Shown: positions 30,863-34,632, counted from the first letter of the stretch. The stretch: DNA of 34,632 nucleotides from Nitrospirales bacterium (GCA_030648395.1 JAUSHW010000073.1:1-34632); one strand, 5' to 3'. Made by a program: numbers and translations. The notes: generated from the letters alone by a model not told the origin.

Positions 30863-30919
30863 GGCACCGTATTACGCGCATGCAGGATGGCGTAACTCTT
30901 CATTATTATTATATTTTTA

Positions 30920-30948
30920 TTGACTTGACATCGATTTGATGTTAAAAG
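30920..30948 (+). promoter_or_regulatory. Putative promoter of the EPS operon with embedded inverted repeat
   Basis: TTGACT (30920-30925) - 17 bp - TAAAAG (30943-30948). The inverted repeat ACATC-gattt-GATGT (30928-30942) lies in the spacer, within a strikingly AT-rich intergenic region. Confidence 0.45.
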
Positions 30949-30983
30949 CGATAAAATGCACATCGTTCCATGAAAGGTGAATA

Positions 30984-31781
30984 TTGCATTACGAAGATTA
31001 TTGGGGGTTGAAGAAAGCTCCCTTTGATAACGTCCCTGATCCGCTCTTCTACTTTCCTTCCGCCAGGCACGAGGAAGGACTGCATAGGCTTCTCTATGGC
31101 GTGGAGGCGCGAAAAGGGGCGATCATGCTGACAGGGGAAATCGGATGCGGAAAGACCCTGCTGAGCCGCACCCTTATCCAACACCTCGCCCACGATCACT
31201 ACGACTTGGCCCTCGTCGCCAATCCAAGCTTTGAAGTCGCAGATTTTATTAAAGAAATTCTCTACCAGCTGGGGGTCAGCCAGAACGGGACCAAGCTGGA
31301 CATGGTTCATGCACTCAACGAGCGGCTATTGGAGAATCTCAAGAAGGGAAAAGATACTGTCCTGGTCGTCGATGAAGCACAGGCCATCAATGACCAGGCA
31401 ATTTTCGAGGAACTCCGACTGCTCTTGAATTTTCAGCTTAACGATCGGTTTCTGTTGACCTTGATTCTGCTTGGCCAACCGGAACTGAGGAGCAAAGTGG
31501 AGGCGATCAAGCAGTTGTCCCAGCGGGTTGTGATTCGGTATCACCTGATGCCGTTCAATATGGACGAAGTCGGCGACTATATCAATTTTCGGATGCAGGC
31601 GGCCGGAGCTTCGCGGGCCGTATTTACGCCGGAAGCCATTGTCGCCGTGTATGAATCGAGCGGAGGCATTCCGCGGAAAGTGAATACCATCGCGGATCTC
31701 GCTCTCCTGATCGGGTTCATGGAGAGATGCCAGCAGGTCGGACCTGAGGTCATCAGAAAAGCAGTCATGGAGGCCCAATAG
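30984..31781 (+). CDS. ExeA-like / polysaccharide-locus-associated AAA ATPase (TTG start)
   Basis: MHYEDYWGLKKAPFDNVPDPLFYFPS; Walker A GEIGCGKT; Walker B TVLVVDEAQAI; FQLNDRFLLTLILLGQPELRSKV; SGGIPRKVNTIADLALL. RBS AAAGGTGA before TTG. Confidence 0.88.
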   Translation: MHYEDYWGLKKAPFDNVPDPLFYFPSARHEEGLHRLLYGVEARKGAIMLTGEIGCGKTLLSRTLIQHLAHDHYDLALVANPSFEVADFIKEILYQLGVSQNGTKLDMVHALNERLLENLKKGKDTVLVVDEAQAINDQAIFEELRLLLNFQLNDRFLLTLILLGQPELRSKVEAIKQLSQRVVIRYHLMPFNMDEVGDYINFRMQAAGASRAVFTPEAIVAVYESSGGIPRKVNTIADLALLIGFMERCQQVGPEVIRKAVMEAQ

Positions 31782-31787
31782 GCTGTT

Positions 31788-32822
31788 ATGGCACGTCTCA
31801 ATGAGCTCGTGAGGAATCAAGGAGACTCTCCGGTTGGAGGCATGGGCCAACTGAAGAGGGTGGAGCCCAAAGTCGTTTCCTTCAAGAACATCGAGGCGAA
31901 TGTGACGCGGGCTTCTGTGGAGCAGGACGCCCAGCTCATTCTCGACGCCGACCAATGGCACGCCAAAGCCGAGATGGAGTTGTCTCCCATCATCGGGGCC
32001 GTTCGCCAGGCCCAGCAGTTCTCGCTCGATGGGATCACGCAAGTGGTACATGGTTTTGTCGACTCCCTCTCCAAAAGCGACCGACTCCTCGTCAAGGCCA
32101 TTTCCGTGGAGCGGGGCGGCCTGGTGATTTCCAACCTGCTCAACACGGCGATCATGTCGATCAAGATCGGGATGGGTTTAAAGTACACCCGCGATGATCT
32201 TCTGAGACTGGGGCTTGCCGCCATCCTGCACGATTTGGGCATGGGCCTGATCCCCGACAACATTTTGAACAAGCAGGGTCCGCTGAGCCCGGATGAGCGC
32301 AACCTCATCAAGCAACATCCTGAGCAGGGCGCCCAGGCGATTCGCCAGCTGGGGGAGGACGCCGCCTGGGTTGCGGACATCGTGGTGCAGGAGCATGAGA
32401 GGGTGGGGGGGCAGGGCTATCCGCGTGGGCTCAAGGGCGCGGAGATCCATGAGTACGCCCAGATCATCGGCCTGGCCGACACGTTCGAGGCCCTTCTTCA
32501 TAGCCGCCCTCACCGCAAACGGTTTCTGCCGCATGATGCGGTGCGCGAACTCGTGGTCAAGGAGAAGGCGTTGTTTTCAATACGCATTTTGAAGTGCCTG
32601 ATTCAGCAATTTTCCGTGTTCCCCCTGGGGACCAGGGTGCAGCTCAACACAGGGGAGATCGGAGAGGTTCTGGAGCTGAATCCGCAGTATCCACTCCGGC
32701 CCATCGTCAAGGTCTATATGGACCCCGGTCGTGTCGCGCTGCGGGAGCCGCGGCTGCAAGACCTCAGCAAGACGTCGTTGGTCCATATTACAGAGGTCGT
32801 TCAGGACGACCAGCAAGAATGA
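31788..32822 (+). CDS. Divergent HD-GYP domain protein (c-di-GMP phosphodiesterase-like)
   Basis: HDLGMGLIPDNILNKQGPLSPDERNLIKQHPEQGAQAI...EHERVGGQGYPRGLKGAEIHEYAQIIGLADTFEALLHSRPHRK. Confidence 0.88.
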   Translation: MARLNELVRNQGDSPVGGMGQLKRVEPKVVSFKNIEANVTRASVEQDAQLILDADQWHAKAEMELSPIIGAVRQAQQFSLDGITQVVHGFVDSLSKSDRLLVKAISVERGGLVISNLLNTAIMSIKIGMGLKYTRDDLLRLGLAAILHDLGMGLIPDNILNKQGPLSPDERNLIKQHPEQGAQAIRQLGEDAAWVADIVVQEHERVGGQGYPRGLKGAEIHEYAQIIGLADTFEALLHSRPHRKRFLPHDAVRELVVKEKALFSIRILKCLIQQFSVFPLGTRVQLNTGEIGEVLELNPQYPLRPIVKVYMDPGRVALREPRLQDLSKTSLVHITEVVQDDQQE

Positions 32823-33748
32823 CCCGGAAATTTAGATTTCTGGGGCGTTCTGCCGCGAATCACCCTTCCAATCTTCCCGCGTGTTCGATCATCTCAGACC
32901 GCGCGCGTGGCATTCTATCGACTGTGCCCAGGGTGTTGGGGTTGTTGTGCACGTTGGCGGCGTTGATCCTGCCGTTCGGATGCACTCCGGTTCCTTTCAC
33001 GCCCGGAACGCAGTCGCCGTTCTCCCGTCCGGTCAAACCTGAAGATCTGTACGTCGAGGAGTCCGAGCAGGGCCCTCCCAAAATCGAGCCTGGCGACAGC
33101 ATCGAGGTCGTGATCAGACGGGGAGCCGGAGAGGAACGGTCAACGGTCACGGTCCGGGATAATGGGAGGGTCTATATTGGGGTTCTGGATGTGGAAGTGA
33201 AAAGCCTGACGGTGCCGGAGGCAGAGGTCCGCATTACCGAGCAGGTGGCAACGATCATCCGTAATCCTCGTGTTGAGGTCGCGATCAAGCAGAAGAAGCT
33301 CCAGTTGCGCAAGCAGAGGGTCTATATCATCGGCGGGGGAAGCGGGGTTGGAGCCGGGGCGATTTTAGCCGGAGTCGCGAAATTTGCGGACCTGGATCGC
33401 AAAACAACGGTCGGGCAGCTCATTGCCCAGGTCGGATACAACGACGTCGCGGTGCTGGACGATGTCCGGGTCATCAGGGGGGATGCCAGAAAACCGGAAG
33501 TGATCCCCGTCGACGTCCAGCGGTTGTTCCAGTACGGGGACCGCAGCCAGGACATCGTGCTGAAGGACAACGACATCGTATTCGTGCCTCGCCAGCGGAT
33601 TGCTGACTGGAACTCGTTCCTGCAAAAGATGACCCCGACGCTCAATCTGCTGCTCGGATCCTCCACGCTGAGCCCCGAGGCGCTATCCAGGTTTTTGTCG
33701 GATAACAACGTCCAGCCGGTGCTGGTCCCGACCATCAACGTGCGGTAG
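32819..33748 (+). CDS. Polysaccharide export (Wza-like) outer-membrane lipoprotein
   Basis: ATGA overlap with the preceding gene; hydrophobic segment then Cys (LCTLAALILPFGCTP); KIEPGDSIEVVIRRG..VTVRDNGRVYIGVLDVEVKSLTVPEAE SLBB/PES pattern; DNDIVFVPRQ. Confidence 0.88.
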   Translation: MTRKFRFLGRSAANHPSNLPACSIISDRARGILSTVPRVLGLLCTLAALILPFGCTPVPFTPGTQSPFSRPVKPEDLYVEESEQGPPKIEPGDSIEVVIRRGAGEERSTVTVRDNGRVYIGVLDVEVKSLTVPEAEVRITEQVATIIRNPRVEVAIKQKKLQLRKQRVYIIGGGSGVGAGAILAGVAKFADLDRKTTVGQLIAQVGYNDVAVLDDVRVIRGDARKPEVIPVDVQRLFQYGDRSQDIVLKDNDIVFVPRQRIADWNSFLQKMTPTLNLLLGSSTLSPEALSRFLSDNNVQPVLVPTINVR

Positions 33749-33762
33749 GTCTAAGGAAGCGC

Positions 33763-34632
33763 ATGGCCCAATACGAGCTGAACCTTCGCGACTACTGGCT
33801 GATCATACGCAAGCGCAAGTGGATTATCACATTCACGGTCCTGCTGGTGGCGGGAGCCACCTGGTTCGCGAGTCAGTTGTCCAGCCCTCATCTGATCTAT
33901 GACGCGTCGGCCCGCGTCAAGTTTGATCGCTCGACCTCGATGTCCGGTCTGATGACGGAGGTGATGGCGTTCTCGGAAGGCAACAACATCACGACCCAGA
34001 CTGAAGTCATCCGCAGTGTCCCTGTCATGGTGCGGGCCGCGAAAAAGCTTGGATTGATAGGCAAGGACGCCGATCCCAGGGAAGCCCGCGTCCCGCAGGA
34101 GGTCCTGGTCAAGGTCTACGACCTGAAGGGCCAGATTGCGGTTTCGCAAGAGACCGGGACGAACATTCTGAGGATCAGCGCGACCATGGACGATCCCGAT
34201 CATGCTGCGCGGTCCGCCAATGCGGTGGCTGAGTCGTACCGTGAGGAGAATATCGTCAGCCGGAACCGGCAGGTGGACGAGGCCAAGCTGTTTGTGGAAG
34301 GGCAACTGAAGGCCATCGAGGTGGCCTACAGACAATCCGAGGAAGCGCTGCTCCGATTCAAAGAACGGGAGGGCAATGTCTTTCTGACCGAAGAGGCACG
34401 GGAAGCCCTGGGGCGCTACAGCAGCCTCGAAGCCGAGAGGGAGAAACTGGCTCAGATCAGACGTGAGGTCACCGAGCAGCTCAGGATATTGAAAGCCAAT
34501 AAGGCATTGCCGGAGCCTGGGTCGGTGCGTATTTTTTCTGATGATGTCCAGGCCCTTATCGCGAAGTTGAACCAGAAGCTGTCTGATCTGACAACCGAGC
34601 GAACCACCTTGTTGGTCAACTATACCCCCAAG
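33763..34632 (+). CDS. Wzz/chain-length determinant-type polysaccharide co-polymerase (partial, runs off window end)
   Basis: My translation is MAQYELNLRDYWLIIRKRKWIITFTVLLVAGATWFASQLSS...; Wzz N-terminal topology followed by a coiled-coil region; open at the window end. Confidence 0.87.
   Translation, partial: MAQYELNLRDYWLIIRKRKWIITFTVLLVAGATWFASQLSSPHLIYDASARVKFDRSTSMSGLMTEVMAFSEGNNITTQTEVIRSVPVMVRAAKKLGLIGKDADPREARVPQEVLVKVYDLKGQIAVSQETGTNILRISATMDDPDHAARSANAVAESYREENIVSRNRQVDEAKLFVEGQLKAIEVAYRQSEEALLRFKEREGNVFLTEEAREALGRYSSLEAEREKLAQIRREVTEQLRILKANKALPEPGSVRIFSDDVQALIAKLNQKLSDLTTERTTLLVNYTPK

Follow-up and report, generated by a model that had tools for sequence, protein, structure and literature searches.

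Gene content and order at the locus

The window analysed here, that is, the whole 34,632-nucleotide stretch of Nitrospirales bacterium DNA (GCA_030648395.1 JAUSHW010000073.1:1-34632), corresponds to contig C181 of a genome (G000) assembled into 216 contigs totalling 2.16 Mb. It ends, at the contig end, within a run of four genes on the same strand. These encode, in order, an AAA ATPase, an HD-GYP-family protein with a degenerate active site, a Wza-like outer-membrane polysaccharide export protein and a chain-length protein (Table 1). The open reading frame (ORF) calls and family matches bear out the layout given in the first-pass annotation, which was made from the sequence alone: a 6-bp gap separates the ATPase gene from the HD-GYP gene, the ATG of the Wza gene sits in an ATGA overlap with the 3' end of the HD-GYP gene, and the chain-length gene follows Wza after 14 bp. 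The tight junction between HD-GYP and Wza is common to the window's family, in which the Wza ATG lies at most 4 bp from the HD-GYP stop in the three members (despite a different stop in G003), and it is not strict elsewhere. The ATPase gene has a TTG start codon, as in two relatives, and its product displays intact Walker A (GEIGCGKT) and Walker B (VLVVDEAQ) motifs. The Wza-like protein, which scores 55 bits against TIGR03027, under the cut-off, probably carries a lipoprotein signal.

The last gene is interrupted by the contig end, and the final 141 bp of the window are identical to the first 141 bp of contig C91, with no other match in the genome. Once the two contigs are joined, the gene encodes 715 residues, in which Wzz, GNVR and AAA_31 domains are recognised and which end in a Tyr-rich tail (YNPEYAKHQYYKYSS); the join is supported by the uninterrupted homologue encoded by G007 (locus L047), which has the same length of 715 residues and is 80.6% identical over its full length. 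As judged from these domains, the last gene is a Wzc-type tyrosine autokinase: the gene earlier described as Wzz-like is a chain-length gene and not a bare Wzz. Polysaccharide genes, for which the first-pass annotation had proposed to look downstream, are indeed found on C91, where the Wzc gene is followed by genes for a Wzy_C protein, a DegT aminotransferase, a GT2 glycosyltransferase, two methyltransferases, an NAD-dependent epimerase and a Wzx-type flippase. Altogether, Wza, Wzc, Wzy and Wzx, the set expected of a Wzx/Wzy exopolysaccharide (EPS) operon, are all present and, by gene content, the window ends in the head of such an operon.

Upstream of the ATPase gene lie GlmM and ComEC and a probable promoter region. 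The latter assignment relies on the sequences of relatives, no + strand site having been recovered when the window was scanned for the promoter consensus: G007 and G003 display TTGACA with TATAAT or TATAGT at a spacing of 16–17 bp, and the window's own copy is degenerate.

Table 1. Genes, motifs and probable promoter at the locus (window coordinates)
Feature	Position	Strand	Basis
AAA ATPase (AAA_22)	30984..31781	+	Pfam AAA_22 1.8e-24; TIGR03015 231.8 bits; alignment
HD-GYP-family protein with degenerate active site, 344 aa	31788..32822	+	HD_5 8.8e-28
Wza-like outer-membrane polysaccharide export protein	32819..33748	+	Poly_export 3.2e-08
Chain-length gene, interrupted by contig end	33763..34632	+	Wzz 4.2e-06
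The same, as N-terminal 290 aa of predicted Wzc-type co-polymerase/tyrosine autokinase	33763..34632	+	Remainder in C91 (L003:1-1419)
N-terminal motif MARLNELVR of HD-GYP protein	31788..31814	+	Motif survey
Codon N116, replaces metal ligand H189 of PmGH	32133..32135	+	N in 36/39 phylum-set proteins
HDLGM (H148-M152), HD dyad kept, M at PmGH K225	32229..32243	+	PmGH alignment, census
E202-H203, at PmGH metal ligands H276-H277	32391..32396	+	PmGH alignment, census
GYP motif G210-P212, kept	32415..32423	+	39/39 and 80/80 relatives
Probable promoter region ahead of ATPase	30918..30960	+	TTGAC kept in three relatives

Recurrence of the ATPase–HD-GYP pair

The ATPase-first order, which the first-pass annotation had singled out as a peculiarity, is not confined to the window's genome and recurs in relatives: the arrangement is shared by two genomes of the window's family and by five from another family of the same taxonomic order, the one to which Nitrospira belongs. 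More specifically, ATPase–HD-GYP–Wza–Wzc was read in the window, G007 and G003 (to the contig end in Wza), in G150, G227, G084, G067 and G301, in G343, in three Nitrospirota contigs (L069, L071 and, as far as its contig extends into Wza, L067) and in one Omnitrophota contig (L137). Two variants were also found. Desulfobacterales and relatives (L095, L096, L100, L101, L125) display the order HD-GYP–ATPase–Wza–Wzc–Wzy, and in many Nitrospira, including N. moscoviensis, the ATPase is missing and the order is HD-GYP–Wza–Wzc–Wzy; the two ATPase-less Nitrospira loci that were checked occupy the same position, after GlmM/ComEC or ComEC. Note that in L096 (7100-9298) and similar Desulfobacterales loci, the Wza-like protein adjoining the HD-GYP–ATPase pair is fused behind FG-GAP repeats (732 residues).

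The pairing itself is more widespread than any one gene order. When 396 genomes of the phylum were searched independently with the ATPase and HD-GYP proteins, 49 of the 62 ATPase matches fell within 1.5 kb of an HD-GYP gene of the family, a proximity far beyond chance in 2–5 Mb genomes that contain one to four such HD-GYP genes. A second, context-blind scan of the genome_contigs set, which relied on HD-GYP sequence patterns only, returned 68 loci flanked on either side by 900 bp or more: the ATPase was present within 600 bp in 33, Wza within 8 kb in 39, either of them in 52 and both in 20. Four loci with no Wza in reach (L090, L091, L098, L127) nevertheless have polysaccharide-type neighbours, as read from the sequences by eye rather than by profile. 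Genomes of at least eight phyla encode the pair (Nitrospirota, Thermodesulfobacteriota, Planctomycetota, Fidelibacterota (Neomarinimicrobiota), Nitrospinota, Omnitrophota, Calditrichota and Latescibacterota), and the ATPase and HD-GYP trees display the same main groups.

In one deltaproteobacterial metagenome-assembled genome (L103, JAFGNJ010000019.1), the two proteins are fused in a single polypeptide of 578 residues, with AAA_22 at residues 43–172 and HD_5 at residues 358–504; the stop codon of the fusion overlaps the ATG of a Poly_export/SLBB gene, which is followed by Wzc and Wzy. A second fusion (L149, G340:C86, 1456-3729) joins the ATPase to an HD-GYP relative without GYP, away from polysaccharide genes, and probably has a C-terminal membrane helix. 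An ATPase of the same family is also found fused behind a dCache sensor domain (L148, G343:C189, 640-2676). The Nitrospira HD-GYP ORFs of about 700 residues, considered as further ATPase–HD-GYP fusions, were rejected: the frames differ, and the extra length is a C-terminal extension.

Nitrospira-type genomes contain a second ATPase–HD-GYP pair, located after genes for CheA, CheW, a receiver protein with a coiled coil and an Hpt-like protein, at the end of chemosensory operons (L055, L057, L060, L061). The HD-GYP protein of these operons is often fused to about 400 C-terminal residues without a Pfam match. In a midpoint-rooted tree, the chemosensory HD-GYP copies form one clade (support 100) within the Nitrospirota EPS clade (supports 96 and 99), which points to a duplication of the EPS pair; the ATPase tree also groups the chemosensory copies together (support 99).

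These observations bear on what the ATPase works with. Its position directly ahead of an outer-membrane exporter, together with its likeness to ExeA and TIGR03015, could mean that it is an ExeA/GspA-like assembly factor placing the exporter, with the HD-GYP gene merely next in the operon. We consider this improbable, since the fusion, the pairing across phyla and the joint move to chemosensory operons designate the HD-GYP protein, rather than the exporter, as the partner of the ATPase.

The ATPase is a relative of the XrtA-associated/ExeA-like ATPases, and a sequence search of the PDB returned weak AAA matches and nothing better. The first-pass annotation had compared the locus with the EPS loci of the XrtA/PEP-CTERM type, and it might indeed be an ordinary locus of this type with a shuffled gene order, as the ATPase, Wza and Wzc weakly match XrtA-associated models. 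All these scores lie under the cut-offs, however: against TIGR03015 (cut-off 324.5 bits), every ATPase member tested scored 203–243 bits. Moreover, a TIGR02602 search for exosortase was negative in all eight genomes examined that share the ATPase–HD-GYP–Wza–Wzc order (G000 and seven others), whereas the same search was positive in four of four Nitrospira genomes with the split arrangement. We therefore rejected the XrtA/PEP-CTERM assignment, which is highly improbable. A search for PEP-CTERM target proteins gave no match in G000 and was uninformative, the control genomes being equally silent.

Active site and nucleotide site of the HD-GYP protein

The AlphaFold model of the HD-GYP protein (mean predicted local distance difference test score, pLDDT, of 77) comprises a helical domain and a small C-terminal beta domain; residues 1–43 (pLDDT below 50) correspond to a low-confidence linker after the N-terminal motif. 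The top fold match in the PDB is DvhD in complex with cyclic di-GMP (c-di-GMP) (9rbz; E 3.3e-08, template modelling score 0.72 on the target). Alignment with the phosphodiesterase PmGH indicates that the equivalents of H221, D222, H250, H277 and D305 are present in the window protein, and that H189, K225 and H276 are replaced by N116, M152 and E202, respectively; H189 was assigned from the family alignment, whose corresponding column shows H in relatives from other parts of the phylum. In the phylum set of 39 proteins, the K225 position is always M, L, I or T and the H276 position always E, A or V. A census of these two positions in the genome_contigs set was discarded, as GM and QEHER form part of the very patterns used to retrieve that set. 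In PmGH, each of the substitutions H189A, H276A and K225A abolishes hydrolysis (PMC4159591). The loss of catalysis, as predicted from these residues, is well supported.

The HD-GYP protein could still be a phosphodiesterase that works through a modified metal site and reduces the c-di-GMP level beside the export machinery, given that it keeps five of the eight PmGH metal ligands and that relatives in other phyla retain H189 as well. This has a low probability in our view: any one of the three replaced residues, when changed alone to Ala, suffices to kill PmGH, and the Asn at the H189 position is invariant in the EPS and chemosensory copies of the order, which suggests a selected change of the site rather than decay. 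The first-pass annotation was thus correct in placing a c-di-GMP-domain protein in the export cassette, although one that is unlikely to be a working phosphodiesterase.

Most residues of the nucleotide site, by contrast with the catalytic ones, are kept. PmGH contacts c-di-GMP through Y285, R314 and K317 (PMC4159591), and the corresponding positions are Y, R and R in all 39 proteins of the phylum set, as are GYP, R240 and R243 in the window numbering. DvhD, which has lost its catalytic ligands, binds c-di-GMP (dissociation constant about 0.1 uM) without hydrolysing it (PMC13090378). Among its contact positions, Y621, R650 and R653 are kept in 39/39 proteins, E668 in 34/39, L577 in 33/39 and Y652 in 30/39, K582 is found as R in 29/39, and Y523 could not be mapped. 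The HD-GYP protein is probably a c-di-GMP receptor. The ligand is probably made in this organism, since G000 encodes three GGDEF domains; no EAL domain, and by HD_5 and EAL no canonical c-di-GMP phosphodiesterase, was recognised in this incomplete assembly. The other two HD_5 proteins of the genome (G000:C119; L160, L161) lack the HD dyad (ADIGK in one, no HD in the other).

Alternatively, the protein may be a nucleotide-blind scaffold or an activator of the ATPase, its degenerate site being a relic and the signal coming from elsewhere. Bd1817 is a known inactive HD-GYP protein with a closed site (PMC4159591), the L149 fusion joins the ATPase to a relative that has lost GYP too, and the chemosensory copies are tied to CheA, CheW, receiver and Hpt proteins, a phosphorelay input that would need no c-di-GMP. 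This explanation is possible but doubtful, since the invariance of GYP, R240 and R243 across the phylum set goes beyond what a pure scaffold would need.

The N-terminus of the HD-GYP protein displays a motif, M-x-R-[LM]-x-[DE]-[LIV]-[LIV]-[RK], which is shared by the Nitrospirota EPS proteins and many proteins of other phyla; none of the chemosensory copies examined has it. Within the named set, it is matched strictly by 34 of 57 proteins encoded near ATPase or EPS genes and by 1 of 19 encoded near neither, compared with about 0 in shuffled sequence.

A candidate control module and its known relatives

We propose, with a confidence that is about evenly balanced, that the ATPase and the catalytically degenerate HD-GYP protein constitute a two-protein control module of Wzx/Wzy export, probably based on a c-di-GMP receptor. 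The two proteins would act together, probably as a complex in direct contact in this organism; the HD-GYP part would bind c-di-GMP without hydrolysing it and change shape; its state would be passed to the ATPase, thereby altering the action of the latter on the export complex (Wzc/Wza); and polysaccharide assembly or export would be switched on or off after protein synthesis. The dedicated switch on export suggested by the first-pass annotation is thus the best reading, although the tight coupling it invoked turns out to be a trait of the window's family and not a general one.

Several observations weigh against such a module. Most Nitrospira EPS loci have no adjoining ATPase, which is consequently not needed in cis. 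The positions of DvhD K582 and Y652 vary in the HD-GYP family, the window protein having H at the latter. The HD, H250, H277 and D305 ligands persist, so that the site may still accommodate one metal and have another activity, and the substrate-contact residues that are kept also occur in active enzymes and on their own do not prove a receptor. Finally, the N-terminal motif persists in proteins that have no ATPase beside them and has disappeared from the chemosensory copies, which do have one; this disfavours the motif as the ATPase contact, and a partner in the export machinery or the membrane is more likely.

More tentatively, and with somewhat less than even confidence, we suggest that the AAA ATPase and the non-catalytic HD-GYP protein form an undescribed c-di-GMP-gated switch that directly controls Wzx/Wzy export across phyla, and that in Nitrospira it was duplicated and rewired as a chemosensory-array output, so that the ATPase is now found in that setting and the export operon retains an HD-GYP protein on its own. 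c-di-GMP drives exopolysaccharide production; to our knowledge, its action on Wzx/Wzy export complexes is poorly known beyond a few model species. A pair that is present in at least eight phyla, often beside EPS operons and once as a single protein, is a direct, testable candidate for such control. If this proposal is true, the annotation of these HD-GYP proteins shifts from phosphodiesterase to regulator, and the same switch is connected to a chemosensory pathway in Nitrospira, which is important as a nitrite oxidiser.

The component families and the DvhD precedent are already known, and it is the combination of ATPase, HD-GYP protein and export genes that appears to be undescribed: a literature search outside subscription journals found no paper joining an HD-GYP protein with an exosortase or an EPS ATPase. 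The Desulfovibrio vulgaris protein DvhD (PDB 9rbz, 9rc0) shares with the window protein the HD-GYP fold, the loss of catalytic ligands, the nucleotide-site arginines and the GYP tyrosine, and belongs to a biofilm-related operon (PMC13090378). DvhD differs in that it resides in the membrane, contains dCache and PAS domains, controls a periplasmic protease and no longer has the HD dyad (PMC13090378), whereas the window protein is soluble, keeps the dyad, has an AAA ATPase as partner and lies in a polysaccharide-export locus. PmGH and the active HD-GYP phosphodiesterases have in common with it the fold, the GYP loop and the guanine-contacting Arg and Lys/Arg, and are set apart by H189, H276 and K225, which it has replaced (PMC4159591). 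The XrtA-associated ATPase of TIGR03015 resembles the window's ATPase in superfamily and in a general polysaccharide setting, from which the latter departs by its score under the cut-off, the lack of an exosortase and its HD-GYP partner. Lastly, the locus resembles Wzx/Wzy-dependent EPS operons (Wza-Wzc-Wzy-Wzx) in its full export and polymerisation gene set, and differs from them in that the operon is headed by an ATPase–HD-GYP pair.

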